Source: Palleronia pelagia
GTDB taxonomy: Bacteria > Pseudomonadota > Alphaproteobacteria > Rhodobacterales > Rhodobacteraceae
NCBI RefSeq assembly: GCF_900110115.1
Contig: NZ_FOCM01000001.1
Span: forward strand, 806,001 to 870,000
Length of the DNA stretch: 64,000 nt
Direction: 5' to 3'
The number at the start of each line of letters is the position of its first letter. The first letter of the stretch is position 1. This document shows, piece after piece, positions 3,631 through 51,618 of the stretch. Both the position numbers and the translations under genes were made by a program. Under the pieces are notes generated by a model that was given only the letters and a program-made list of their open reading frames with translations, ran no database searches and was not told the origin of the DNA.

Positions 3631-4359
3631 TCAGCCACGCACAATCGTGTAGGTGCCTTCCCCGGCCAGTATGCCCTTGAAGCCGCCGGGTTCGTCCAGC
3701 GAGAAGACGACGATGGGCAGATCGTTGTCGCGCGCCAGCGCGATGGCCGAGGCGTCCATCACGCCAAGGTGCTTCTGCAGCACCTCGTCGTAGGTGATCT
3801 TCTCGTAGCGCTTGGCGTCGTCGTGCTTGGTCGGGTCCTTGTCGTAGACGCCGTCCACCTTGGTGCCCTTGAAGATCGCCTGGCAGTCCATCTCGGACGC
3901 GCGCAGCGTGGCGGCGGTGTCGGTGGTGAAGTACGGGTTACCGGTGCCGGCCGCGAAGATGCAGACCCGCTTCTTCTCCAGGTGGCGCACCGCGCGGCGG
4001 CGGATATAGGGCTCGGCCACCTCGTTCATGGTGATGGCCGAGATCACGCGGGTGTGGATGCCGAGCTCTTCCAGCGCCGACTGCATGGCCAGCGCGTTCA
4101 TCACCGTGGCGAGCATGCCCATGTAATCGGCCGTGGTCCGCTCCATCCCCTGCGCCGAGCCTTGCAAGCCCCGGAAGATGTTGCCGCCGCCGATGACCAT
4201 GCAGATCTCGACCCCCAGGTCGTAGACCGACTGCACCTCGCGGGCGATGCGCTGCACGGTGGGCGGATGCAGGCCGTAGCCCTGGTCGCCCATCAATGCC
4301 TCGCCCGAGATTTTCAGAAGAACCCGGTCGAATGTGCGTTTCGACAATGTCTCGGACAT
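3631..4359 (-). CDS. pyrH: UMP kinase
   Basis: Hexameric amino-acid-kinase-fold enzyme that phosphorylates UMP to UDP. The 242-aa protein has [11 protein letters not shown] near residues 14-24, GGGNIFRG, a [12 protein letters not shown] stretch and the C-terminal [14 protein letters not shown] motif of UMP kinases. The open frame extends much further upstream, to 6069, but that part is antisense to miaA and the AraC gene. The ATG at 4359 ([10 protein letters not shown]) gives the family length. It is divergent from miaA, with 78 bp between the two start codons. Confidence 0.97.
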
Positions 4360-4437
4360 GCGGCCCCCCGGGCTTTTGCGTTGCGGCGCAAACTGTCGCA
4401 AAAGGGCCGCGGTGACAACGGGGCGCGGACGCGAAAA

Positions 4438-5325
4438 ATGCAGATCGACAGGCTGGTGGGCGAAGCGGGCCGGGACGCGCCGGTGCTGATCGCGGGTCCC
4501 ACGGCCAGCGGGAAGTCGGCGCTCGCGCTCGCCATCGCCGAGGCGACCGGCGGCACGGTGGTCAATGCCGATGCGCTCCAGGTCTATGGCCGCTGGCGTA
4601 TCCTCACCGCCCGACCCGACGCGGCCGAAACCGCCCGCGTGCCCCACGCGCTTTACGGTCACGTCGCGGCGGACCAGGACTACTCGGTTGGCCACTGGCT
4701 GCGCGAGGTCGCGGCGCTGATCGACACCGGTATCCGGCCCATCGTGACCGGTGGCACCGGGCTCTATTTCACCGCGCTGACCGAGGGGCTGGCCGACATC
4801 CCCGCCACGCCGCCCGGGATTCGGGCGCGGGCCGACGCGATCCTGGCCGAGGACGGCTTGCCCGCGCTGCTGGACGCGCTGGATCCCACGACCAGGGCAC
4901 GCATCGACACCCGCAACCCCGCCCGCGTGCAGCGCGCCTGGGAGGTGCTCGAGACAACCGGCCGGGGCCTTGCCGCCTGGCAGGACGCCACGCCCGCCCC
5001 CCTGCTGCCGCTGGACCGTTGCGTGGCCTTCCGCGTGGACGCCCCTCCCGCCGTGTTGACCCCCCGGATCGAGCAGCGGTTCGACGCGATGCTGAAGGCA
5101 GGCGCGCTGGACGAGATGCGCGCCAATCTGCCCGATTTCGATCCGGCGCGGCCCGCCGACCGGGCCATCGGCGCGCCCGAGCTGGCCGCCCACCTGCGCG
5201 ACGGGATCCCGCTGGAGCAGGCCCGCGACGCGGCGGTGATCGCCACGCGCCAATACGCCAAGCGCCAAAGGACATGGTTCGCCAAGCGGATGCGCGGCTG
5301 GCGCGGCGTGCCATTGTCGACGTGA
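4438..5325 (+). CDS. miaA: tRNA dimethylallyltransferase
   Basis: Adds a dimethylallyl group to A37 of tRNAs that read UNN codons. The 295-aa protein starts [11 protein letters not shown] and has the P-loop [11 protein letters not shown] near residues 20-30, [17 protein letters not shown] (substrate Asp/Gln site), GGTGLYF, and a C-terminal [11 protein letters not shown] stretch that contacts tRNA. The frame is open further upstream to 3769, but that region is antisense to pyrH. The ATG at 4438 fits family length and keeps the P-loop near the N-terminus. It is read away from pyrH. Confidence 0.95.
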
Positions 5326-5412
5326 TCGAAACGGCGCGCGGTTTTTCTTTGACCGCGGGCCGGGCTGGGTTACCGTCTCGCCATCCGCTGCCAACCCGGA
5401 GACATCGCCGCC

Positions 5413-6216
5413 ATGCTGGAAACTGGGATCGCCACACCCGGCTATCGCATCACGCCCCTGCAACAGATCGCCAAGGGCGGGCGCTGGCGGACCGAGGCCA
5501 TGCGCAGCTATGCCCAGCCGGTGCTGTACTGGTTCACCCGCGGACAGGGCCGGATCACGATCCAGGGGGCGACCCACGGCTATGGCCCGCACAACGCCGT
5601 CCTTCTGCCGCCCGGCACGATGCACGGCTTCGACACGCTGGGACAGGTGGCCGGCAGCGCCATTTTCCTGCGGCCCGACCCCTCGCTCGACGTGCCCGAG
5701 ACCGCGATCCACTTGCGCCTGCGGGACGCGACGCTCCAGGCCGAGCTGAACCTTCAGGTCGACAATATCCAACGCGAGCTCGATCGCGGGGCGCAGGCGT
5801 CCGACCGTGCGCTGCTGCACCACGCGGGCCTGATGCTTCTGTGGCTCGAGCGGCAGGCCGGCCCGGACTGGCAGGAGGGCGCCGAGCCCGGCGGCAGCGC
5901 CGGCCGCCTGGCCGCGGCTTTCACCGCCCTGCTCGAACGCGACTTCCGCCGGGGCCGCACCGTGGCGGACTATGCCGCGCAGCTGGGCATCACGCCCACC
6001 CATCTGAGCCGCGCCTGCAAGGCGGCGTCGGGACGCCCGGCCTCGGCCCTTCTTCAGGACCGGCTGCATTACGAAGCGCGGCGTCTGCTGCGGGAAACGT
6101 CGCTGCCGGTGAAGGACGTGGCACAGGCCCTGGGCTTCCGCTCGGCCGCCTATTTCACCCGCGCCTTCCAGCAGCGCACGGGCCAGACGCCAAGCGCCTT
6201 CCGCCGCGGCGGGTAG
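5413..6216 (+). CDS. AraC family transcriptional regulator
   Basis: The 267-aa protein has an N-terminal cupin-like sensor region (about residues 20-120, with [19 protein letters not shown] resembling an arabinose-binding fold). Its C-terminal AraC/XylS DNA-binding domain spans about residues 165-265. The double helix-turn-helix is recognisable from [20 protein letters not shown] and from [30 protein letters not shown], the classic second-helix signature. The ligand is unknown. The next gene, a solute-binding protein, follows 115 bp downstream on the same strand and is a plausible target. Confidence 0.9.
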
Positions 6217-7996: not shown

Positions 7997-8056
7997 TCGC
8001 GGAACAGACCGTCGCCTGCGCCGTTGGACCGTCATCTCCGGCGAAAGGACGCGGCA

Positions 8057-8896
8057 ATGGCGCAGAACGATCTCGACTGGTCCATCCCCATCATGCGCGC
8101 AGGCTATTCCGGCCGCGCCCTTGTCTATCTCGTGGTCGCGGGCTTCTCGCTCTGGGCCGTCAGTCGCGGGGGGCAGGCCGAAGGCACGATGACCGCGCTG
8201 CAATCACTGGAACGGACGGCCTACGGCACACTGATCCTGCTGGCCATCTTCGTGGGCATGCTGTCCTACGCGGTCTGGCGCCTGATCGACGCGGCCTGGG
8301 ATCTCGAGGATTACGGCAGCGACGGCAAGGGGCTGATCGCCCGGATCGGCATGGTCGTCACCGGCCTTATCCACCTTGGCATCGGCATCGGCGCACTGCT
8401 CCTGGTCTTCACCGCCTCGGGCGACGGCGGCGGCTCGACCATCGCGAAAGCGGCGAACACCGTGATGGGCTGGCCCGGCGGGCGCCTGCTGGTGGGCGCG
8501 GCGGGCGTCGTGACCGTGGGTGCGGGCCTCTATTACCTGAAAAAGGCCTGGAACCGCGAATACCGCACGCACCTGATCGGCAATCCCGTGACGCGCAACT
8601 TCGATCCGGCCCTGCGTGGCGGCGTCGCTTCGCAAGGGTTCGTGGTGACGGTGATCGGCGGCTTCCTGGTCTACGCCGCCATGACGGCCTCGGGCAGCGA
8701 GGCCGGCGGGCTCGGCAAGACATTCGACTGGCTGAGCGGACAGCCCTACGGGCGCGTGCTGGTGGGGCTGCTCTGCGTCGGGCTGCTGGGCTTCGCGCTG
8801 TTCTGTGCCGTGAACGCGGCGTATCGGATTGTGCCGAAAGCCAGCCATGGCAGCCTCGACACGCTGAAGGCCAAGTTCAAGCAGAAGGCGGCCTAG
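8057..8896 (+). CDS. DUF1206 membrane protein
   Basis: The 279-aa protein consists of three similar membrane modules, each with two hydrophobic helices (about residues 10-90, 95-185 and 195-275). Each module has a GRxLVxLxxxG-like start, seen as [26 protein letters not shown] and [13 protein letters not shown]. This repeated pattern is that of DUF1206, whose biochemical role is unknown. The start at 8057 follows GAAAGGA. The stop overlaps the stop of the convergent lytic transglycosylase by 4 bp. Confidence 0.85.
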
Positions 8897-12774: not shown

Positions 12775-14272
12775 CCGCGTTCTTCTCATGGCCTGCGCCC
12801 TGCCCATGGCCGCCACGGCCCAGGACCGGGCGCCCCTGTCGGCCATCGGGTGGCTGTCGGATTCCGTGGCCCTGCCCGCCGCGCTGCCGCGCCCCGTGGC
12901 CCCCGACGCGGCCGAGCCGCCCGTGGCCTCGAACGCGCTGCCCGGCCGGGTGACGGTCCGCCCGCTGGATGGCCCCGACGCGCCGCCAGCGGCCCTTGGC
13001 CTGTTCTCGCCCGCCTCGCGTGGCCTTCCGTCCGAGCTTTGGGCACCGGGAGCGGATCCGGAACTCGGCGCCATACGTCCTGCCACTCTCGCATCCAGCC
13101 AGCGGCTGCTGCATGATCTTCTGGCCGCCGATCCAGGGCGCAGCGGTGCCGACGACGCGGACGAGGCGCTGTTTCTCGAACGGGTCGATGCGCTGATGGG
13201 GTTGGGGCAGCTCGACACCGCGCGATCCATGCTCGATCTCGCAGGGCGCGACCGGCCGCGGTCGTTCCGGCGCTGGTTCGACATCGCGCTGCTGACTGGG
13301 CAGGAGAACGCGGGCTGTTCGGCCATGCGGCGGCTGCCGCAGATCACGCCCACCTACCCCGCGCGCATCTTCTGCCTGGCGCGCGGCGGCGATTGGCGCG
13401 CGGCGGAACTGACGCTCGAGACGGCGCGCAGCCTCGATGTCATCACCGCCGCCGAGGCCGAGCGGCTGCGCCTGTTCCTGGATGAACTGGCCGATCCGCT
13501 GATGCTGCCACCGCCGGTGTCGCCCACACCGCTGGATTTCGCGATCCTGGCCGCGGTGGGCGAGCCACTGCGCACCCCCGCGCTGCCGCTGGCCTTCGCG
13601 CACGCCGACCTGCGGCCGATCACCGGCTGGAAGCTGCGGCTCGACGCCGCCGAACGGCTGGCCCGGCGCGGCGCCATCACGGCCGACCGGCTGTGGCAAA
13701 TCTATCACGAGCGGTCGCCGGCCGCCTCGGGAGCGCTGTGGGACCGGGTGGAATTGGCACAAGAGCTGGACGCAGCCGTTGAGGCTGCGGATCCCGCCCG
13801 TGTCAGCGCACTGTTACCGCAGGTCTGGGACGCGATGCAGGCGGCGGGCCTGCCCCATGCGCTCGCGATGCGCTATGCCGATGACCTGGGCCGCCTGCCG
13901 CTGACGGGACCGGCCCGCGACATTGCCGCACAGCTGTCCGCCCTGACCGGCGCGCCCGCGACCACGCCGCTGTTGCCGTTCGTTGCCGCGTTGGTCGGGG
14001 GCGGCGATGCCCCCCTCCCGGCCCAATCCCCGCTGGAAGCCGCCATCGCCGACGGCCTGCAGGTCACGCCACCGCCCGCCCGGGCGTCGCGCGCGATTGC
14101 CGAGGGGCGCCGGGCCTCCGCCGCCATCGACGCCGCCGCGCTGCTGGATGACGGGGCCGAGGGCAACCTGGACGCCATCCGCCAGGGGCTGGCCACCCTC
14201 GTGGCAGCAGGCTTCCACGACACGGCCCGCCGCGCGGCCATAGAACTTGCCATACTGGGACCCGATGCATGA
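12764..14272 (+). CDS. Secreted or periplasmic protein of unknown function, 502 aa
   Basis: I do not recognise the family. The product starts MVNSRVLLMACALPMAATAQD, which reads as a signal peptide cleaved after ATA or AQ. The rest is Ala/Leu-rich and mainly helical, with repeated helix pairs (for example LFLERVDALMGLGQLDTARSM) that resemble an alpha-solenoid such as TPR; this is an impression, not a domain hit. The gene is sandwiched between the small membrane ORF (overlap 11 bp) and xerD (overlap 4 bp), so all three are likely translated from one mRNA. Confidence 0.75.
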   Translation: MVNSRVLLMACALPMAATAQDRAPLSAIGWLSDSVALPAALPRPVAPDAAEPPVASNALPGRVTVRPLDGPDAPPAALGLFSPASRGLPSELWAPGADPELGAIRPATLASSQRLLHDLLAADPGRSGADDADEALFLERVDALMGLGQLDTARSMLDLAGRDRPRSFRRWFDIALLTGQENAGCSAMRRLPQITPTYPARIFCLARGGDWRAAELTLETARSLDVITAAEAERLRLFLDELADPLMLPPPVSPTPLDFAILAAVGEPLRTPALPLAFAHADLRPITGWKLRLDAAERLARRGAITADRLWQIYHERSPAASGALWDRVELAQELDAAVEAADPARVSALLPQVWDAMQAAGLPHALAMRYADDLGRLPLTGPARDIAAQLSALTGAPATTPLLPFVAALVGGGDAPLPAQSPLEAAIADGLQVTPPPARASRAIAEGRRASAAIDAAALLDDGAEGNLDAIRQGLATLVAAGFHDTARRAAIELAILGPDA

Positions 14273-31545: not shown

Positions 31546-33201
31546 CTAAATGCCGCGCAGACCCCCGCGGAGAGGTGCCGGAGTGGTCGAACGGGGCGGT
31601 CTCGAAAACCGTTGACCCTTCACGGGGTCCCAGGGTTCGAATCCCTGTCTCTCCGCCATACTACAATCACCCCCGATTTTACCCCCTAACGCTTTGAACG
31701 GTAATGATAATTCCGGGGTTCGAAACCCCTGATTCCGCGAGTACGCCAACCTGTCCGAAAACGTCAGTCTGAGGGCGAGTCGCTGTAACTCAAACCGCCC
31801 GCTTTCCCATACTTTACAGGGGCTTAAGAGAAACGCGCTGGCGAGTTCGAACATTTGTCCGAAGGGGCGTGCAGGACGGCCTGACAAGTCCGCTTTTTCC
31901 GCCAGAACAAGCTTTTCCTGCTCCAGAGAACCGATCTTCTTCTCATAAGCCTGAATGACGGTCTTTGTCTCGGCGTCAATCAGACGTGTGAGCAGCGCTT
32001 CCACCTGCTTGTCGAGGTCCTGGATTTTGGCAGCGTAGAGCGCCGCATGTTCCTTGGCGCGGACGAGACGTGCGTCCCAGATGTCGGCAAACATTGCCCT
32101 GGCTGCGGAGACCTTCGCGGCTGAGGGGAGGACATCACTGAGGAGGTCTGTAAACTCGCCCTCAATCTCATCGCGGCGGATCGACTTGCGGTAGGAGCAG
32201 CAGCCCTTGTGGAAACACATATAATATGGATGCTTCTTGCCTGTCTTGCTCTTTGACCAGCAGGAGGTCAGCGGACGCTCGCAGTCCCCGCACAACACAA
32301 AGCCGCGCAGCGGGAAGTCTTCGTTGATGTCAGCGCGAGCGGCAATGCGCGCGCCTTCTTTGATACGCTCCTGAATGCGGGTGTAGGTCTCGAAGGTGAT
32401 CAGCTCTTCGTGCTTCGCCTTCATCATGCGGATGCCCCAGGCAGGCACTTCTATATACCCAGCGTAGTGCGGACGGGTAAGCAGACGGATGACCTCTTCA
32501 TAGCGGACGAAGCCATTTGGAAAGCGGCTGGCAAAGGCAGGCTCCGATTCGAGATAGGTTTTTACCTCAGACTGCGAGGCAAAGCGCCCGTGTGCAAAAC
32601 CGTCCAGCGCTTCGGCAATGATCGTGGCAAGAGGCTCGTCGCGGACCAGCAACTTGCCGTGTCCGGCCACACGCTCATAACGAAAGCCCGGAGGCGCAGG
32701 AAAACACCAGTACCCGTTCATGGTGCGGGCGCGCATGCGGTTGGTCGTCTGCTCACGGTTTTTCTGGCGCTGATGCTGCGAGACGGAGGCGAGCAGGTTT
32801 TCGATCAGGACGGAGTCGGAATCTTCGCCGAAGGTGATCGATGGGCTTTCGAGCTTGCCGCCGATATCTTTTAGGGTGCGGCGCAACGTCCAGTGACTTT
32901 CAATATCACGGGCAAAGCGGCTGATGTCATCGATAATCACGACAATGCCTTCGGATCGCTGCGCTTTGATAAAGGCAATCAGCTCATTGAAGGATGGACG
33001 GTCCATGAGACCGCCGGAAACGCCTTTTTCATGAAAGGTGCGAATGACGGAATAGCCTTTGCGCTCCGCATATTCACGGCAACGCGTGGCCTGCGAGTCG
33101 AGGCCGTGCCCTTCTTCTACCTGTCTGGCAGAAGATACACGGCAGTAAATAACGGCCTGCTTGGTATCGGAATCGAGTAGTGAAGATAATTCTGCGCTCA
33201 T
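31546..33201 (-). CDS. Large serine recombinase (integrase of the island)
   Basis: The 551-aa site-specific recombinase has an N-terminal resolvase domain (IYCRVSSARQ with nucleophile Ser23, SQATRCREYAERKGY, IIDDISRFARD). A recombinase domain follows (about residues 165-280), then a zinc ribbon (LCGDCERPLTSC to MCFHKGCC), a coiled coil (LYAAKIQDLDKQVEALLTRL) and the C-terminal stretch RNQGFRTPELSLPF. The last about 35 codons (from MAERQGFEPW) are antisense translation of the tRNA-Ser gene, and the stop lies 23 bp beyond the tRNA 5' end. The native C-terminus in an excised element would therefore differ. It overlaps the next upstream gene by 4 bp. Confidence 0.93.
   Translation of the reverse strand: MSAELSSLLDSDTKQAVIYCRVSSARQVEEGHGLDSQATRCREYAERKGYSVIRTFHEKGVSGGLMDRPSFNELIAFIKAQRSEGIVVIIDDISRFARDIESHWTLRRTLKDIGGKLESPSITFGEDSDSVLIENLLASVSQHQRQKNREQTTNRMRARTMNGYWCFPAPPGFRYERVAGHGKLLVRDEPLATIIAEALDGFAHGRFASQSEVKTYLESEPAFASRFPNGFVRYEEVIRLLTRPHYAGYIEVPAWGIRMMKAKHEELITFETYTRIQERIKEGARIAARADINEDFPLRGFVLCGDCERPLTSCWSKSKTGKKHPYYMCFHKGCCSYRKSIRRDEIEGEFTDLLSDVLPSAAKVSAARAMFADIWDARLVRAKEHAALYAAKIQDLDKQVEALLTRLIDAETKTVIQAYEKKIGSLEQEKLVLAEKADLSGRPARPFGQMFELASAFLLSPCKVWESGRFELQRLALRLTFSDRLAYSRNQGFRTPELSLPFKALGGKIGGDCSMAERQGFEPWDPVKGQRFSRPPRSTTPAPLRGGLRGI
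31569..31658 (+). tRNA. tRNA-Ser (CGA anticodon)
   Basis: A 90-nt class II tRNA. The acceptor strand GGAGAG pairs with CTCTCC, discriminator G and encoded CCA end at 31658. The D-arm region contains GCCGGAGTGGTCGAA, the anticodon loop is CTCGAAA (anticodon CGA), a long variable arm follows, and the T arm holds GGTTCGAATCC. The 3' end is the boundary of the accessory island, whose serine recombinase gene reads antisense into it. Confidence 0.96.
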
Positions 33202-43466: not shown

Positions 43467-43796
43467 CTATTTGGAAATCAGGTAGTCATCCAGCGACTTG
43501 CCGCTTTCCAGACCTTCCTTGATCCAGGCTGGCTGACGACCGCGCCCGCTCCATGTGAGAGATGGGTTTTCAGGATGCGCATACTTCGGCGGCAAAGGCT
43601 GCTTACCTTTCTTCGCCGCAGCGCCGCCCGTCAATTCAGCAACAGAAAATCCGTGCTCTTTGGCCGTGGCTTCGATTGCGGCGAGGGCTTCATTCCTGCG
43701 CTTGGCCTCATACTGGTCGATGGCCTTGGCAACGTCTTTTTGAAGCTGCTTGAGCTCATCCAGATCGAGCTTGTCGAGATTGATCTTGGCGGGCAT
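43467..43796 (-). CDS. H-NS/HvrA-family nucleoid protein
   Basis: The 109-aa protein has an N-terminal coiled-coil oligomerisation helix (LDELKQLQKDVAKAIDQYEAK). The C-terminal H-NS DNA-binding motif is YAHPENPSLTWSGRGRQPAWI, with the core GRGRQP that enters the AT-rich minor groove. Island-borne H-NS copies often silence AT-rich transferred DNA, which fits this location. It is convergent with the RTX gene, 5 bp apart. Confidence 0.93.
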   Translation of the reverse strand: MPAKINLDKLDLDELKQLQKDVAKAIDQYEAKRRNEALAAIEATAKEHGFSVAELTGGAAAKKGKQPLPPKYAHPENPSLTWSGRGRQPAWIKEGLESGKSLDDYLISK

Positions 43797-43896: not shown

Positions 43897-44682
43897 CTAA
43901 TCTGTAAGTCCAGCACTATAAAGCCACTCATCAAAGATTTCAGGCGTAAGTGTATACCCTCGAACCATGATGTCCTCAGGTTGCAGAAACGAATCGCCCG
44001 ACGACGCTATAGGCCTTCCGCTTGGCGCGCCTTCAAATGTAATACCAATAGGCATTAGTCGATCATTCTCAACACAGAATATAGGACCGCCGCTTATCCC
44101 ACTAAAGCCATACCGTGATGGCTGTGGTAGTTTCGATTGTAGTGCAAACATTGGATTCTTTGGATTGATCGGCGAAACTAACTCGGCAGTGACTTCGATC
44201 ATGCTTGACGCAACATTCGTCTCAATCTCAGACTTCTCTTTGTCTGGGAACCCAACCGCACAGCATAGGTTAATGTCTTTCCAGTTGGGTTCTAGGTACT
44301 TATCTAGATTGATCGGCTTTTTCGGCTTTGATCCAGAAACAAGTTCAAGATGGTACTCTGAGAAGTAAGAGATGCATATGTCTGTCCCGCCAAGATCATC
44401 AATGTCCTGCAATGTGCTTACCGCTCCTGCTTCAGACCATGTGTTGAGAGGAATCAACACTCTATTTCCATGAATATTTGCAGACCAGCTTTCGTTTTTT
44501 GCCATGTGCTCTTTAACATGCCGACACGTAACGATATATAGATGACCTTTTCTTCGGACAAAGGTTGCTGTTGCATTGACCGATTCCGCATTGTGTCCTT
44601 CTGCCAAAAAGGCATTCTGTAAAAATAGCGGAGCGCAGTACATATTCATCATTTTACTAATAGATTTTTCGCTCATTTTCAT
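43897..44682 (-). CDS. Trypsin-like serine peptidase, 261 aa
   Basis: A chymotrypsin-fold catalytic triad can be read: His55 in YIVTCRHV, Asp101 in GGTDICISYF and Ser197 in YGFSGISGGPIF (GxSGGP). There is no signal peptide, so it is probably cytoplasmic, unlike housekeeping HtrA proteases, and no PDZ domain is present. The N-terminus could start at the third codon, which has a better-placed AAGGA. Cytoplasmic trypsin-like peptidases of this kind often accompany multi-domain immunity proteins; the neighbouring 1358-aa gene is on the same strand. Role inferred. Confidence 0.8.
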   Translation of the reverse strand: MKMSEKSISKMMNMYCAPLFLQNAFLAEGHNAESVNATATFVRRKGHLYIVTCRHVKEHMAKNESWSANIHGNRVLIPLNTWSEAGAVSTLQDIDDLGGTDICISYFSEYHLELVSGSKPKKPINLDKYLEPNWKDINLCCAVGFPDKEKSEIETNVASSMIEVTAELVSPINPKNPMFALQSKLPQPSRYGFSGISGGPIFCVENDRLMPIGITFEGAPSGRPIASSGDSFLQPEDIMVRGYTLTPEIFDEWLYSAGLTD

Positions 44683-44744
44683 CCTTATAATTTTAGTTTA
44701 TTATATGTATTTAGGAGAACGAAAATCTGCCATGTAAGATTGAT

Positions 44745-44775
44745 ATTTTTTAGGTTTTAGGTTTTAGGTTTTTGT
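44745..44775. repeat. TTTTAGG short tandem repeat
   Basis: About three copies of a 7-bp TTTTAGG unit in the AT-rich gap upstream of the peptidase gene; the gap holds no other feature I can support. Confidence 0.7.
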
Positions 44776-44805
44776 TTTTTGCCCACGCTCTTGTCATTCC
44801 TGTCG

Positions 44806-44952
44806 CTACCGACCTAGTTGCCTCTCAAGGAATTCTTGGTTGAACGGATCAAGTAAGGGCTGTTCTCCTTCCAGCATACAAAGCACCCGGTAGCAGTTTG
44901 CTGCTTCCCGCGCCATCATCTCAAGCTGGCAGACCGTCTTCCCAATACTCAT
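44806..44952 (-). CDS. Small protein, 48 aa
   Basis: Begins MSIGKTVCQLEMMAREAANC and ends LERQLGR, with a GAAGGGGAG site upstream. It looks like two helices with two Cys residues. It follows the 73-aa gene by 23 bp on the same strand and precedes the peptidase gene. Function unknown. Confidence 0.5.
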   Translation of the reverse strand: MSIGKTVCQLEMMAREAANCYRVLCMLEGEQPLLDPFNQEFLERQLGR

Positions 44953-44975
44953 CGCTTCGTACTCCCCTTCGTGAA

Positions 44976-45197
44976 TCAGGACGTAACACGCCTCCAGAAT
45001 GCCTCCACATCACGGTCGATCTCTTCAGCTTCTTCGAGAGACGGCAGTTCTCGCTGCAAGACCTTGCGTACGGCAGGAGACTGAAGATGCCCGATCTCTT
45101 GGAAGCGCTTCACGGTTTCAGCCAACGGCTGTGGAAGACGATCCCGCCACCAGGCAGGAGAATACTTTTCGGGCTTGTGCTTCGGGGAAAGTGGCAT
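44976..45197 (-). CDS. Small protein, 73 aa
   Basis: The sequence runs from [20 protein letters not shown] to [16 protein letters not shown]. It is helical and charged with aromatic anchors (PAWWRD, AFWRRV). No domain is recognised. It sits between the structured noncoding region and the 48-aa gene, all on the minus strand, and may belong to the same locus as the peptidase and the large HTH protein. Confidence 0.55.
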
Positions 45198-45645
45198 GTC
45201 TCAGCTTAGATCAGTGAACCAGTCTGCACCAAGCCCACAGCGATCACTTATTGCGGAGTCAGAGCTAGGTTTCCGACTTAGCGACGAACGCAAGATGTGT
45301 GTTGTAGTACAACGCCAACTTGGCAAGGGGACCCGCTGCGCGCCCCCGTTGCATCCCCCCGGCTTGTGGCGGGTCTCAGGGTATTGAACCCGTCATCCAG
45401 CCATCAGAGCGTTTCGCCGCTTGGGCCACGAGCAAGGAGACTTCGCTCTCCCTGCACCCATCGATCAAGGGGCTATCGCGCCCCCTTGAAACCCGCTCGC
45501 AGGACTTGGAGACGTCCCTCTCCACCTGCACCGAACCACGGACAACCTGCCGTCAGGTTGATCAACGATCAGGGAGCGTTCCTGCTGCCCCCGATACCCC
45601 CCTTAACAATTCATAGAGACCAGCCCTTAGGCGGCTTGGATGTCG
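45198..45645. ncRNA. Structured noncoding region, possible ncRNA or tRNA-like remnants
   Basis: This 448-bp gap has no credible ORF but is GC-rich and full of stems. Perfect hairpins are: GGAGA/TCTCC at 45436-45451 (6-nt loop), TCAAGGGG/CCCCTTGA at 45465-45489, GGAGA/TCTCC at 45508-45523 (6-nt loop) and CAACCTG/CAGGTTG at 45543-45560. The two GGAGA hairpins lie 72 bp apart and both are followed by CTGCACC. Three plus-strand stretches contain TGAACC, TGAAACC or CGAACC, which on the minus strand read like T-loops; one (45367-45393) is preceded by TGG as an antisense CCA end. No complete cloverleaf can be drawn, so strand and identity are open. Confidence 0.4.
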
Positions 45646-48600
45646 TCAATATCTCATGCGCTTGCGAATTGCTGCTTCATTGTCCTCGTACTCAGCCTCA
45701 CTAGTATAGCTTTCTGCAATGGTGCGAAGCGTTGTTGCTGTGTTAGGAAACTCATATTCCATCGAGGAAGCCCAGCCTGCATATTTATTTGCCAGCTCTC
45801 TCTCTTGAGCGCCTCCTTCGCCACGAAAATGAACACCACGGGCATTTTTCGTACCGATGTAGAATCCTCTTGAAACACTGTCGGTCATCAAGCGATCCAT
45901 AACTGACCGGACACCCTCACAAGGCCAAACACCATCTGCACCAAGTTTTGCGTTGCTAAGAAGCTCACCAATTCTGTAGTCTGCTATATCACGTCGCCCC
46001 TTGTTTTCGCATAGCCGACGAGCCTCGGTTATCCATTCCTCAAGATGGTGAGCATCAACAGTTCCATCATCTTTGGTGCCTGGAATCCTATTGAGTGCAT
46101 CAAGCAAGCGATAAGCATTCGTTGCAACTGCATCCAAATCCTCTATATCTTCCTTATCGGAGGTACCGTCGTCACGTTTGAATGCCATCTCGACAGCGTC
46201 ACAAAAAATGCTAGGGTTCTGTGACACCTCTTTTTCGAGATTTAAGGCTTCTTCTTTCTCGTCACGATAGATCGCCAGATATCGAAACTCCAGCAAAGCA
46301 AGTTCACTTTGGGTGTGAGCCCCTCGCTCTGTAAGAATCTTAATTGCTTCTTTAATTGAATACGCTTCCATTGTTTGGATGGCGCCGCGATCTTCGCTAG
46401 TGGTCGTCATGTCCATAAGAACTTGATAGAGCTGAGGTGAGGAAACAGATTTTAAATCCAAATGTATGAAGTTGAACGCAGCCGTCGGGCGCCCCTGCTC
46501 AAGAAGCTTGCTAGTTGCAAATTGTAGATCTTGTTCGGAGTGATGCATCCAATTTGGGAGAACCATTTTCCAATACATATTCTGGAACTCAACATCAAAA
46601 CGTGCAACATCTGCCCAAGTCTCAGTCACAAATGGTGCCAAACAGTACAACTCAAGCAAAACTTCGTTGTCCACGCCGACTCGTAGGGCATGCAAAACGC
46701 CGCACGTTTCACTAGGACCGATTTCTGCGAACATGCCACCTATTAACTGTCGCATCGCAAAATTATTGGCTAGTGGGCGATGCGAAATTGCAAAATCAAC
46801 AAAATCTCGCCGGTCATTGCTATCGATCAGCACACGACCAGCACATCTGCCTACGACCCAAGCGGCTTCTCCCAAAAAGGCAAGGTCAATAAACCCCTGA
46901 AAACCCCTTTCTTGGTATACCTGTTGAGCTGCGTCATCTCTTAGTGATTGGATGCGTTCGTCCCTTTTCCTGTAGTCTATATCATCTTCAATTTCGTCCC
47001 AAGCTTCCGGCACCCAGTGTTTCTTGAACAGCCAAGAAAACTTCTGGATCAAATCACGTGGTTCGAGCGTATCATAAGTATCTTTTGCCAACTTGCTCCT
47101 GCGAGCGTCGCTGTCAGCATCTCTTCCTTCGCGTTTCTTACGACGCATAGTTCTACGTATCGTTGTTCGGATTTTTTCTCGTAAAATCGCGCGATCTTCG
47201 TCGCTAGCAGTCACGGCCCACGCGTTTACGACACCCCACATTTGTTCATTGTGCTCGTCGGTCACAAAATCTTCCAGACCAATCAGATCACACATTATGT
47301 CCACATCGTAGCTCGGCCATTTAAGCGCACTTTCGATGCAAAATATGACAAACTCATTCCGTTCTCTGCGTGTAGCGCCTTCACCATGGCCAAAGGCATC
47401 GTCTCGCCATCGAGGCTTGTGGTTGGGGCTAGCAAAACCTGGAGAGGGATCAAGCTCCGCTTTGCAAATTGTCCACGCGACATCTGGATTCTCTGCAATC
47501 ATCCTATTCATAAGGGCTATTCGCTGTTCTATGGAGGCAGCTGTCTGCGGTAACCAGCTTCTGAAAATCGAGCGAAGAGTTTCAACTGGCTTATTTACCC
47601 AGTTGTCGTCCAGTTTGATTTCGCTGAGGCGCACCAGAATATTGACTACACGTGGCAGATAGTTTGCAGACCATGCGAGATTTTCAAGCGCCCACAGTAA
47701 GCCGGTACGCGGATTACGCCCAAACATACCAGTACCTGCTGGGCGAATGAGGGAAAATACGACGGGCTCATCTGAATCGAGGTCGTCTTCCAGTATCTTG
47801 AGAAACGTATCGGGCGCAGCTTCAGCGTAGATGGGTAGATCGGAAGCTTGCGACTCAAGCAGGTCATCATTGAGTGGTACTAACAAATCCCTGACAAGAT
47901 TTGAGCAAAGATGCTCTGTGTTGACACCTGTACGCGAAAAGAACAACTCTTTGCCATGCATAGACATGAGCGCAAGACTGTCGGAGATGCCGTCTCTGAG
48001 CGAGCCACTTATCTCTCTTCTTTTATCGTATATATGCGCAGCCCACCGATCTTCCTCTGGAAGGTCGAGGGAAGGATCACGCTCGGACAACACTAAGTCA
48101 GCGACGGAAAAGAAACGTCGAAGTTCATCCTCATTTATCCAATTACAGATGGCATAGAGCGCATCAATCTTTGAAACTACACCTCTGAACGCTCCCACAG
48201 CCCAGACAGGAGGACTGTTCAAACTCAATAGCTTTGAAAAATGGTCTTCAAGATCGCGATAGTCGTCTATCCCAGCCAACTCACACAATACAATACAGTC
48301 CGTTTTATTACGAGAATTCCAAGCACCAGCAAGTAGGATAGGAAACAAGAACTTTGCTAAATCACTCTGGTTGCTCCATTCCGGTTTTCGTATAGCATCC
48401 GATGTTGAAAGCCGCCTCCTCAACACAGTGAGTGAACGGCCTGACTCATTACTTAGTTTTGAGATTGCATCACGACTCAGTTCCATTTTCTCAAGGCCGA
48501 CACGGAATGCCTCTCCGCTAAGAGGCTCAAGTACGACATCCTTTTCGACACCCTCTGTTGTGCGCGGAGTGATGACTATTCCACCAAGTTTCTGCCCTGT

Positions 48601-49722
48601 CTCGGATAGCTCCTTTTCAACTTCTCTGTTTGTTATGATTGGAATGAAGCGGCTGGTCTTTGCTGCAAGCCTACTGAGAGGTCCCGGCTTGGTGAACGCA
48701 ATAATGCGGTCTCGTTGCTGCGCTAACCCGCCTGCACTGTGATTGAAGAGTGCGTGTAAGAACGCAAGACCCTCCTCAACTGAATCCGCAGCAAGACGCA
48801 CCACTCGTCCATCATCGCCTCGAATACGTTCTGCGAGTTTTTTTCCAGTCGTAGAGATTGCTTCTTCAAACACTTCTTCAACAAAGGAGGGTTCACAATC
48901 AGCGTTCCACTTCACCCAACAACGGTCTAGCGAGAGCGTACCTTCATGTTCAACGCCAGTTTCGTTCGCGAACCATGTTTGCGCAGGTAACGATTGTTCA
49001 AGCCATTGTTCTAGATCGCTGGCATCATAAACACGGACATCTTTCCAATTGCCCTCTGCACGCTTTTCGGCTTCCCACTTTGACTTGCTTTTCCAACGAT
49101 GAGGTGTAACGAAGACAAAAACCATCCCTTTGCGTATCTCTGCATCAACGCCCTTCACGCTCTTCTTGTAATCCTTATTGGCCTTCGAATAATAGTCTGC
49201 GTTTGTTCCAAATTCCCAACCGGATTTTCCTGCTGGTACCCAAGGGTTACCGGTTTCACACTCGATCTCCCCATCCCATCCGGGACGTTCGCCGTCATCA
49301 TTGCCTGGAAAATCCACTAAAGATGTTGAGGAACAAGTGCTGTGAACCAGCATTCGGAGAAATATTGCAAAGCGGGTTCGCGAGGCGATACGCTGCGACC
49401 AATTCGATATGTCGTTTGCGGTGGCCTTTAGAAATGGCGGTATGTAGGGAAGGGATGCTGTAGCCAAAACGTCAGGGATATTTGACTTGGCCTCGAAGGC
49501 GTTTTGAAGCGCAAGCAGCTCTTGAGCATTGTGACCAAAAGCCTTCTCAATTTTTGCAGCCATCTCGGGAGATAGCGCTGACTTACCGTTTAAGAGGTTC
49601 GAAAGCGCAGGCCTGCCCACACCTAGTGCCCTGGCAGCGGCAGTGACGCTAACGCCTTTAGGAATAACTTCTTTCTTAATGAAGTGGCCGGGGTGAGTTA
49701 TATTCGTTGTAGAGTTCGACAT
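45646..49722 (-). CDS. Giant HTH + putative nuclease-like + helical-repeat protein, 1358 aa
   Basis: Residues 1-75 are a HigA/XRE-type helix-turn-helix (HPGHFIKKEVIPKGVSVTAA, then RALGVGRPALSNLLNGKSALS). Residues about 145-190 hold RPGWDGEIE, PWVPAGKSGWEFGTN and SKANKDYKKS, a D150/E170/K180 pattern reminiscent of PD-(D/E)XK-type nuclease regions in immunity proteins. A TPHRWKSKSKWEAEKRAEG segment follows. The remaining about 1000 residues are mostly helical, like a degenerate STAND/solenoid protein; I see no intact Walker A. The start at 49722 is chosen for the AGAGAGG site. A promoter with a dyad lies just upstream. HigA normally stands alone, so this fusion is unusual. Function is probably defence or addiction-like, by inference. 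Confidence 0.75.
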   Translation of the reverse strand: MSNSTTNITHPGHFIKKEVIPKGVSVTAAARALGVGRPALSNLLNGKSALSPEMAAKIEKAFGHNAQELLALQNAFEAKSNIPDVLATASLPYIPPFLKATANDISNWSQRIASRTRFAIFLRMLVHSTCSSTSLVDFPGNDDGERPGWDGEIECETGNPWVPAGKSGWEFGTNADYYSKANKDYKKSVKGVDAEIRKGMVFVFVTPHRWKSKSKWEAEKRAEGNWKDVRVYDASDLEQWLEQSLPAQTWFANETGVEHEGTLSLDRCWVKWNADCEPSFVEEVFEEAISTTGKKLAERIRGDDGRVVRLAADSVEEGLAFLHALFNHSAGGLAQQRDRIIAFTKPGPLSRLAAKTSRFIPIITNREVEKELSETGQKLGGIVITPRTTEGVEKDVVLEPLSGEAFRVGLEKMELSRDAISKLSNESGRSLTVLRRRLSTSDAIRKPEWSNQSDLAKFLFPILLAGAWNSRNKTDCIVLCELAGIDDYRDLEDHFSKLLSLNSPPVWAVGAFRGVVSKIDALYAICNWINEDELRRFFSVADLVLSERDPSLDLPEEDRWAAHIYDKRREISGSLRDGISDSLALMSMHGKELFFSRTGVNTEHLCSNLVRDLLVPLNDDLLESQASDLPIYAEAAPDTFLKILEDDLDSDEPVVFSLIRPAGTGMFGRNPRTGLLWALENLAWSANYLPRVVNILVRLSEIKLDDNWVNKPVETLRSIFRSWLPQTAASIEQRIALMNRMIAENPDVAWTICKAELDPSPGFASPNHKPRWRDDAFGHGEGATRRERNEFVIFCIESALKWPSYDVDIMCDLIGLEDFVTDEHNEQMWGVVNAWAVTASDEDRAILREKIRTTIRRTMRRKKREGRDADSDARRSKLAKDTYDTLEPRDLIQKFSWLFKKHWVPEAWDEIEDDIDYRKRDERIQSLRDDAAQQVYQERGFQGFIDLAFLGEAAWVVGRCAGRVLIDSNDRRDFVDFAISHRPLANNFAMRQLIGGMFAEIGPSETCGVLHALRVGVDNEVLLELYCLAPFVTETWADVARFDVEFQNMYWKMVLPNWMHHSEQDLQFATSKLLEQGRPTAAFNFIHLDLKSVSSPQLYQVLMDMTTTSEDRGAIQTMEAYSIKEAIKILTERGAHTQSELALLEFRYLAIYRDEKEEALNLEKEVSQNPSIFCDAVEMAFKRDDGTSDKEDIEDLDAVATNAYRLLDALNRIPGTKDDGTVDAHHLEEWITEARRLCENKGRRDIADYRIGELLSNAKLGADGVWPCEGVRSVMDRLMTDSVSRGFYIGTKNARGVHFRGEGGAQERELANKYAGWASSMEYEFPNTATTLRTIAESYTSEAEYEDNEAAIRKRMRY

Positions 49723-49748
49723 AATTGCCTCTCTATGTTGTTTTGTAC

Positions 49749-49778
49749 ACTGTATCGTTACACGATACACCCTGTCAA
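49749..49778 (-). promoter_or_regulatory. Promoter with operator dyad for the 1358-aa gene
   Basis: On the minus strand TTGACA (49773-49778) and TACAGT (49749-49754) are 18 bp apart. Between and partly over the -10 box lies a perfect dyad, TGTATCGT-3-ACGATACA (49751-49769). A repressor bound here would block polymerase; the HTH at the N-terminus of the encoded protein is the obvious candidate for autoregulation. Confidence 0.7.
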
Positions 49779-49970: not shown

Positions 49971-49990
49971 GGGGTTGCAGGAGCAACCTC
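49971..49990 (+). promoter_or_regulatory. Hairpin in the ardA leader
   Basis: GGTTGC-AGGA-GCAACC, extended by a G.T and a G-C pair, ends 23 bp before the ardA start, upstream of its ribosome site. It may influence ardA translation; the rest of the gap 49779-50013 shows no gene. Confidence 0.5.
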
Positions 49991-50013
49991 ATACCTTACG
50001 GAAGGAGAAGAAA

Positions 50014-50532
50014 ATGGAAAAATTACAAGGAGATATCCAAATCTATGTTGCCTGTCTGGCAGCGTATAACAACGGCATTCTGCACGGGTGCTGGATCGAT
50101 GCCGAGCAAGACGCCTACCACATCTATGCAGACATCCGCGAGATGCTGGCATCCTCACCCGTCGAAGACGCCGAAGAGTGGGCAATCCATGACCATGAAG
50201 GCTTCGAGGGGGCGGACGTGTCCGAGTATATGGGTATCGAAGAGGTCGCAGAGTTGGCTGCCTTCATCGGAGAGTACGGCGAAATCGGCGGCAAGCTGGT
50301 CGGGCATTTCGGTGATCTGGGCGAGGCACGCAAGGCCATAGAGGACGCTTATGCGGGGGAGTACCGCTCTTTAGCCGACTTCGCCGAGGAACTGACCGAG
50401 GAAACAGGTCAAGTTCCTGAAAGCTTACGCTTCTATATCGACTATGAGCGCATGGCGCGGGACATGGAAATCTGTGACGTGTTCATCATCCAGACGGGCT
50501 TCGAACAAGTCCACGTATTCTGGAGTAACTAG
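50014..50532 (+). CDS. ardA: Antirestriction protein ArdA
   Basis: The 172-aa acidic DNA-mimic protein inhibits type I restriction enzymes during entry of mobile DNA. It starts MEKLQGDIQIYVACLAAYNN after GGAAGGAG. HGCWIDA, SSPVEDAEEWAIHDHEGFEG and DVFIIQTGFEQVHVFW are typical of ArdA, and the protein is rich in Asp and Glu as expected. The upstream in-frame ATG is less likely. The 97-aa gene follows 1 bp later. Confidence 0.93.
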   Translation: MEKLQGDIQIYVACLAAYNNGILHGCWIDAEQDAYHIYADIREMLASSPVEDAEEWAIHDHEGFEGADVSEYMGIEEVAELAAFIGEYGEIGGKLVGHFGDLGEARKAIEDAYAGEYRSLADFAEELTEETGQVPESLRFYIDYERMARDMEICDVFIIQTGFEQVHVFWSN

Positions 50533-50943: not shown

Positions 50944-51618
50944 ATGCAGAGAATTGATCTCAAGGATTTAATGATTGGTGATATTCTTATCCACCAACCA
51001 ACAAAACCGAAAATGCATCAGAAAAAGATATCTGAAGCTTCAAATAGTGCATATACACATGCCTCTGTATATCTTGGTGATGATATGGTCTTAGAGGCTA
51101 ATCCTCCCCAAGTGCGCACTAGAAATATCAAGGACACCTTGGGCTCAGAAGGCATTATTGGTGTCCTTCGTTCTCAAGCAGTTTTTACACCAGACCGTAA
51201 GAAAGCTCTCCAGGAGTTTGCTGGTGAATTGTTGGGCAATAACGCAAAATACGATATCTTGGGCGCGCTCAAATATACAAGGTTACGCTCTAGGCACATC
51301 AATAGTCTTTTAGATATCTTGTCAGAACGGGCCGATAGGGAGAATAATGATTTCAATTTTGATAAGCGGAAGTATTTTTGTTCGGCTTTAGTAGTTGCTT
51401 GTTACTGCGTGGTAGGCATCATAGATAAAACAGCGTACCCTCTTTACCCTCCAGAAATCCATGCCCCAGGTGACTTACTGCACGACCCAACTTTCGGCTG
51501 GGTGTTGGGATACATTGATGTTCATGGAATTGGTCTGAGCAAAGACGATCCGTTAAGGTATGGTACACTCTGGTCAGAACAAGACAGTAAATGGTGGGAT
51601 GCAACGGGCCATGTCTAG
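50944..51618 (+). CDS. Permuted papain-like (YiiX/NlpC-type) hydrolase, 224 aa
   Basis: Order of motifs is that of circularly permuted NlpC/P60 enzymes: GDILIHQPT, then His39 in YTHASVYLGDDMVLEANPP, then Cys146 in KRKYFCSALVVACYCVVG. No signal peptide is visible, so it may be cytoplasmic or an effector. Relatives (YiiX-like) act as amidases or acyltransferases. The upstream 116 bp is AT-rich and holds the palindrome GAAGTACTTC (50904-50913). It is a single gene of low GC. Confidence 0.75.
   Translation: MQRIDLKDLMIGDILIHQPTKPKMHQKKISEASNSAYTHASVYLGDDMVLEANPPQVRTRNIKDTLGSEGIIGVLRSQAVFTPDRKKALQEFAGELLGNNAKYDILGALKYTRLRSRHINSLLDILSERADRENNDFNFDKRKYFCSALVVACYCVVGIIDKTAYPLYPPEIHAPGDLLHDPTFGWVLGYIDVHGIGLSKDDPLRYGTLWSEQDSKWWDATGHV

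Follow-up and report, generated by a model that had tools for sequence, protein, structure and literature searches.

The minus strand of an island in Palleronia pelagia carries a gene for a protein in which a HigA-type helix-turn-helix (HTH) domain is joined to a nuclease-like region, followed on the same strand by open reading frames (ORFs) of 73, 48, and 261 residues, the last of which resembles trypsin. This raises the question of whether the four genes form one defence system, as a preliminary description of the DNA had proposed, or whether the large gene stands alone, and what a repressor of the toxin–antitoxin type does in such a protein. We studied the locus within the 64,000-nucleotide stretch of DNA that contains it (the window), whose relevant features are collected in Table 1. 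The analysis revealed that the large protein is the real find of the preliminary description, and that its accompanying genes are not.

The GC content of the window drops from about 0.69 to 0.42–0.54 between about 32 and 52 kb, and this drop and the recombinase gene on the left (Table 1) point to a mobile setting. A repeat of the tRNA region at the recombinase gene was sought on the right of the island as an att site, and none was found. The closest relative of the large protein is encoded in Ruegeria atlantica (81% amino acid identity). The DNA of the two loci matches from the stop codon of the large gene (45646) to 49966, 244 bp upstream of its ATG, with no match beyond these limits in the 24 kb compared. 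Because the similarity is confined to the gene and its promoter, these move as a unit. Relatives elsewhere occur on plasmids, on viral contigs, and on an element with transfer genes. By eye, an element of about 11 kb, flanked by the repeated end of a chromosomal gene (L043, about 2212–2327 and 13221–13320), seems to enclose the Ruegeria copy and also includes a family-B-like DNA polymerase gene.

Table 1. Features of the locus and its surroundings, with positions counted along the window.
Feature	Position	Strand	Basis or remark
Serine recombinase gene	31546-33201		left side of island; overlaps tRNA-Ser gene
RTX-repeat protein, 1411 aa	39226-43461	+	same island
H-NS-like gene	43467-43796	-	same island
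Trypsin-like peptidase ORF, 261 aa	43897-44682	-	His55, Asp101, Ser197 intact
48-aa ORF, taken as second small protein	44806-44952	-	
Gap between 73-aa ORF and large gene, 448 bp	45198-45645		
Large gene, 1358 aa, four predicted parts	45646-49722	-	ORF list, profile search, AlphaFold, Foldseek
Alpha-solenoid (HEAT-like) C-terminal region, residues ~520-1358; putative sensor	45649-48165	-	predicted model
AAA+/STAND-like module (NBD, lid, winged helix), residues ~258-515, without P-loop	48178-48951	-	predicted model
PD-(D/E)XK-like nuclease domain, residues ~100-255	48958-49425	-	predicted model and conservation
HigA-type HTH, residues 7-78	49489-49704	-	TIGR02607 profile
Putative operator, 26-bp palindrome TGTATCGTGTAACGATACAGTGTACA, 21 bp 5' of ATG	49744-49769	-	PWM/pattern search
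Sigma-70-like promoter: -35 TTGACA, 18-nt spacer, -10 TACAGT	49749-49778	-	promoter scan
ArdA antirestriction gene	49975-50532	+	divergent; about 250 bp from large-gene start codon
YaeF/YiiX-type permuted papain-like amidase gene	50944-51618	+	

A system of four parts (the peptidase, the two small proteins, and the large protein) is suggested by the closeness of the genes and their common strand, and AVAST, Hachiman, Lamassu, and DRT do pair nucleases with trypsin-like proteases (PMC12799240). The catalytic triad read from the peptidase by the preliminary description is there, as is a Trypsin_2 match below the cut-off (E 0.0068) and a weak local match to the LmuA profile of PADLOC (E 2.7e-6). 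Against this, tblastn with the peptidase and the 73-aa ORF as queries gave no match below E 2 in 121 other loci, 102 with the large-gene body and 19 with stand-alone HigA only. The peptidase had no match in 72,556 plasmid records, and none of 80 loci had an ORF with the pattern H...GxSG[GS]P, which does find the window's own peptidase; flanks reached at least 1.5 kb downstream in 66 and upstream in 60 of 76 loci. The 22-kb Ruegeria locus matches neither the peptidase nor ArdA, and in 14 further loci with the gap sequence, real relatives of the 73-aa and 48-aa ORFs are missing. We therefore rejected the four-gene system, to which we would give hardly any probability: no peptidase was found beside the 102 large-gene loci, and the Ruegeria similarity ends at the stop codon. 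Nor does the locus resemble the pairs in which an MBL nuclease gene accompanies a trypsin-like protease fused to a defence core: the peptidase here is encoded on its own, without recurring next to large-gene homologues, and the seven window ORFs scanned with Pfam include none named as MBL. The peptidase is an orphan with very few relatives: 288 other genomes yielded two distant, weak matches (L135 and L136), of which the former retains the H and GxSGGP signature in a 3.6-kb locus without a large gene and has three hypothetical proteins of Pseudomonas as plasmid-borne relatives.

Conserved neighbours did not emerge at other loci. Clustering 846 neighbour ORFs from 76 loci gave no family present in more than four loci, and each Pfam or PADLOC family was matched by at most three of the 136 nearest ORFs. 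The Pfam families among the latter include integrases and transposases, and the PADLOC profiles include AbiLi, AriA, RmrA, type I specificity, type IIG, and OloA, these defence-type matches being counted without a control set. Hence, the large gene is a stand-alone gene. The gap behind it, described earlier as structured, exists and holds a mosaic non-coding repeat. Blocks of it, some in a different arrangement, are found again at 73–89% identity in six plasmid records and, within the class sample, in 13 of 288 other genomes. A structured RNA in this gap was considered and discarded: the fold is no more stable than those of shuffled sequences (z -0.91), and no Rfam family matches.

The minus-strand ORF of the large protein stands as first described, with an alternative upstream GTG start that would give 1374 residues. 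The AlphaFold (AF2) model, from whose alignments the near-copies L080 and L084 were excluded, orders its parts as HigA HTH, PD-(D/E)XK-like fold, AAA+/STAND-like module, and alpha-solenoid. The HTH fusion was confirmed by the TIGR02607 profile (59.1 bits, curated cut-off 47.7). A scan of genome contigs with one conserved motif turned up 549 stretches, and a relative is encoded in 542 of them. We kept the best 80 loci and, before counting conservation, dropped four incomplete ones (L099, L101, L103, L109), leaving 77 aligned rows with the window protein, some of them near-identical pairs. The residues D150, E170, and K180, in which the preliminary description had seen a nuclease-like pattern, are each invariant in all 77. 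The secondary structure of the model (DSSP) follows the alpha-beta-beta-beta-alpha-beta order of the PD-(D/E)XK core; the lysine sits on the next helix, and the usual E-x-K spacing after E170 is absent. The fold comparison barely covered residues 171–241. Two outcomes had been named in advance as speaking against the original proposal, homologues without linked peptidase or small genes and a region with no predicted nuclease fold: the former is what we found, whereas the nuclease topology is predicted.

The rest of the protein had been described as about 1000 helical residues. The C-terminal part agrees with this: residues 440–1358 were modelled as an alpha-solenoid behind a winged helix (pLDDT 88.9), with generic HEAT/importin-like matches only in the structure search. 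Yet this description under-read the portion ahead of it, which in the model looks like an AAA+/STAND-like module that has lost its P-loop. The top PDB matches by Foldseek were Avs3, Avs4, and AVAST5, with modest scores: TM-scores were low (0.09–0.28 for the Avs rows, 0.29–0.39 for those of CED-4), rmsd was large, and three rows only had E < 0.001. The RFC clamp loader ranked ahead of CED-4, and ClpC scored close to the NLRs in the VIA comparison. A BFVD search with the N-terminal model returned mostly HTH and clamp-loader-like proteins. Given the low TM-scores, the rank of RFC, and the score of ClpC, the module is more safely called "AAA+-like" than assigned to "STAND" within AAA+. The one-chain Avs layout of N-terminal effector, AAA+/STAND core, and C-terminal repeats is matched at the level of predicted models only (AF2, Foldseek, and VIA). 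A PADLOC scan with E up to 1 gave no Avs profile in the large protein; the sole match was a local one to PD-Lambda-4_A over 74 residues (670–743, E 4e-8).

The lack of a Walker A motif, already remarked upon in the window protein, extends to the family. The pattern occurs in none of the 77 rows, and in a larger set of 101 rows the strict form Gx4GK[ST] occurs twice and the relaxed form [AG]x4GK[ST] in 26, none of them at the position expected in the NBD. There, the window protein reads AADSVEEGLAF, and E317, standing where the P-loop is lost, is invariant in 77 of 77 rows.

Upstream of the large gene, the promoter scan found one promoter-like site (mean of shuffles 0.4), and the putative operator overlaps 15 of its 18 spacer bases and the entire -10 box. 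One palindrome type is seen 5' of HigA-fused genes. A pattern written after the palindromes had been viewed matched 51 of 72 regions versus 5 of 1,440 controls; we corrected for this with a position weight matrix trained on 36 upstream regions and tested on 36 held out, with some near-identical rows on both sides of the split. At the threshold of 8 bits, 34 of the 36 held-out regions were recovered, versus none of 720 in-gene windows and none of 720 shuffled regions. The matrix refined on all 72 HigA-fused homologues recognised an operator in 65 and none in the other seven; it was also present in four of five fused homologues from other searches, the exception being L003. Relatives with a match that does not include the HigA HTH were scanned at 24 loci, and none of these reached 14 bits. 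The 3.85-Mb genome has no second match with up to three mismatches to the pattern used, and the reversed control pattern matched 10 times in it.

The same operator type occurs in 10 of 19 stand-alone higA loci, every time upstream. At L011 and L012, 17 bp separate it from the higB-like gene that follows, which passes the Pfam HigB cut-off. No HigB gene fits in the 21 bp between operator and ATG of the large gene, and the HigB-like family is not among the families matched by at least two of the 136 nearest ORFs. Since the operator is conserved, specific, and also found before stand-alone higA, the HTH most likely acts as an autorepressor captured from higBA. The simplest account would be a single capture of a HigA antitoxin together with its operator, leaving the toxin behind, to serve as a built-in autorepressor.

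The distribution of homologues bears on this history. Searching plasmids by tblastn with the large protein gave 86 records, 17 of them at coverage of at least 80%; many of the others match the HigA part alone. The aligned rows come from Pseudomonadota, Acidobacteriota, Planctomycetota, Bacillota, Chloroflexota, Nitrospirota, and others, including several metagenome bins. We made a quick tree of 101 homologues with the N-terminus excluded. The HigA label requires three changes on it, which fits one gain and two losses, and the XRE-type HTH and an alternative N-terminal domain require one change each. The HTH labels come from BLAST and alignment (of six XRE calls, only L039 was checked with Pfam), and three homologues at contig ends (L104, L108, L112) were excluded from the tally. 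By eye, an ImmA/IrrE-type gene (L102, region 7997–8881) lies upstream of a relative without fused HigA. At another HigA-less relative (L040, region 3914–5971), an ImmA/IrrE-type gene is annotated upstream, and a separate HTH gene and a PDDEXK gene adjoin the large gene.

The alternative N-terminus, about 280 residues long, is carried on the same winged helix and solenoid by homologues on four viral contigs and one Shewanella plasmid (L042, L125, L127, L129, L130). It replaces the nuclease and the NBD together (query 1 to ~445), so this is not a clean swap of the effector only. It matches no Pfam family at 0.01 and nothing clear among PDB sequences, and three of four give a weak match to DUF626_VIII of PADLOC. 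Its recurrent motifs are FEAxxQA, TDDLI, and Q[VI]KxSI. A D...Q-x-K arrangement noticed by eye suggests that the domain is possibly nuclease-like, of another nuclease type.

Of 5,426 E. coli genomes, 10 carry a HigA-fused form close to the Enterobacter one by megablast, which could miss more distant forms, and 7 carry the alternative N-terminus at 80% coverage. Strain HS is among the 10; its member (ECHS_RS13060, WP_000128902) adjoins genes for RepA, TraJ, TrbJ, and TrbL, and 14 bp lie between its operator and the start codon. In this strain (L138, 7122–8838) and in Lonsdalea (L059, 1709–3422), the HigA-fused gene is immediately preceded by a gene annotated as HigA family (185 aa) and a PIN_12 gene.

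We share the earlier view that the large protein is defence-like in character, and favour, with a probability of about 0.58, its being a single-gene, autorepressed immune receptor of NLR/Avs-like build, presumably directed against phages. At rest, the HigA domain would occupy the operator over its own promoter, probably as a dimer, and keep a dangerous protein scarce. The C-terminal solenoid would sense a component of the invader, and the P-loop-less module would pass on the signal as a conformational or oligomeric switch, without canonical ATP binding by Walker A. The switched module could then activate the N-terminal nuclease-like domain, which would cut DNA, and the assembly of the activated protein may pull the HTH off the operator, so that expression rises in a feed-forward manner. 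More tentatively, and with odds clearly below even, the homologues would make up a widespread clade of NLR/Avs-like receptors that work free of nucleotide, with a conserved element, A-D-S-x-x-E-A-L-A-F with its invariant glutamate, in place of the P-loop, and with a built-in toxin–antitoxin repressor such that triggering opens their own promoter.

Three other readings were weighed against this one. The protein might be a toxin–antitoxin or addiction device in a single chain, in which HigA restrains the fused nuclease in cis and the whole stabilises a mobile element. The HTH and operator do resemble those of stand-alone higBA operons, and the gene is found on plasmids and islands. We nevertheless consider this unlikely: some relatives retain the nuclease and the body without HigA, others bear other HTH types, and a solenoid of about 840 residues is superfluous for addiction. 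We hold it equally improbable that the protein is a type IV-like restriction enzyme, whose solenoid or HTH reads incoming DNA for the nuclease to cut with no NLR-like signalling. Such an enzyme would explain a PD-(D/E)XK-like domain and a DNA-binding domain in one protein, and the loss of the P-loop fits a role other than a switch; but the site of the HTH is a promoter operator, unique in the genome, rather than what a general reader of DNA would bind, and the order of NBD, lid, and winged helix resembles that of NLR/Avs proteins. A role in the maintenance of mobile elements or in exclusion, instead of immunity to phages, has in its favour the tra/trb genes near the E. coli HS member and the partition genes near some plasmid-borne ones. 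The gene is, however, patchy in E. coli, it has no fixed partner, and its nuclease-like residues are invariant, which makes this reading the least probable of the three.

The switch of NLR-type receptors is commonly understood to depend on nucleotide binding. A large clade with the predicted fold and no P-loop is a natural test of how a receptor of this kind could fire free of nucleotide. The proposed autorepression also suggests a route by which a toxin–antitoxin repressor and its DNA site come to control a dangerous effector. Members of about 1,360 residues may be overlooked, since RefSeq names the HigA-fused form "HigA family addiction module antitoxin". Testing should be easy with the member of E. 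coli HS, which has the operator.

Among known systems, Avs proteins hold an effector, a STAND module, and C-terminal helical repeats in one chain. The large protein is like Avs3, Avs4, and Avs5 in being a single polypeptide with a predicted N-terminal effector, AAA+/STAND-shaped module, and long C-terminal helical repeat, and these gave the best PDB fold matches. It is unlike them in having no P-loop in any aligned row, an additional HigA domain, and no Avs match in PADLOC. CED-4/Apaf-1-type proteins and plant NLRs bind ATP/ADP, whereas the nucleotide site is gone from the large protein. Avs5 mutants in Walker A are reported to lose immunity (PMC12931631). HigBA systems share the HTH family and, in the stand-alone loci mentioned above, the operator type; they differ from the large gene, which has no HigB and whose HTH is fused to a body of 1,280 residues. 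PD-Lambda-4, reportedly a two-gene system (attributed to Vassallo, 2022), is like the large protein in its protein A, by the local profile match only. PD-lambda-4 differs in that a review table places it under P-loop NTPase (PMC10952713). We found no description of a HigA–STAND-like fusion in open-licence PubMed Central, which does not imply its absence from print, nor in passages of PMC9519451, PMC10952713, PMC12724215, PMC12799240, PMC13236601, and PMC12931631. PD-lambda-2, a phage-defence system in which a HigA-like HTH is fused to a peptidase (PMC9519451), resembles the large protein in joining such an HTH to another domain, and differs from it in comprising three genes, in having a HigB-like component, and in the fused domain being a peptidase.
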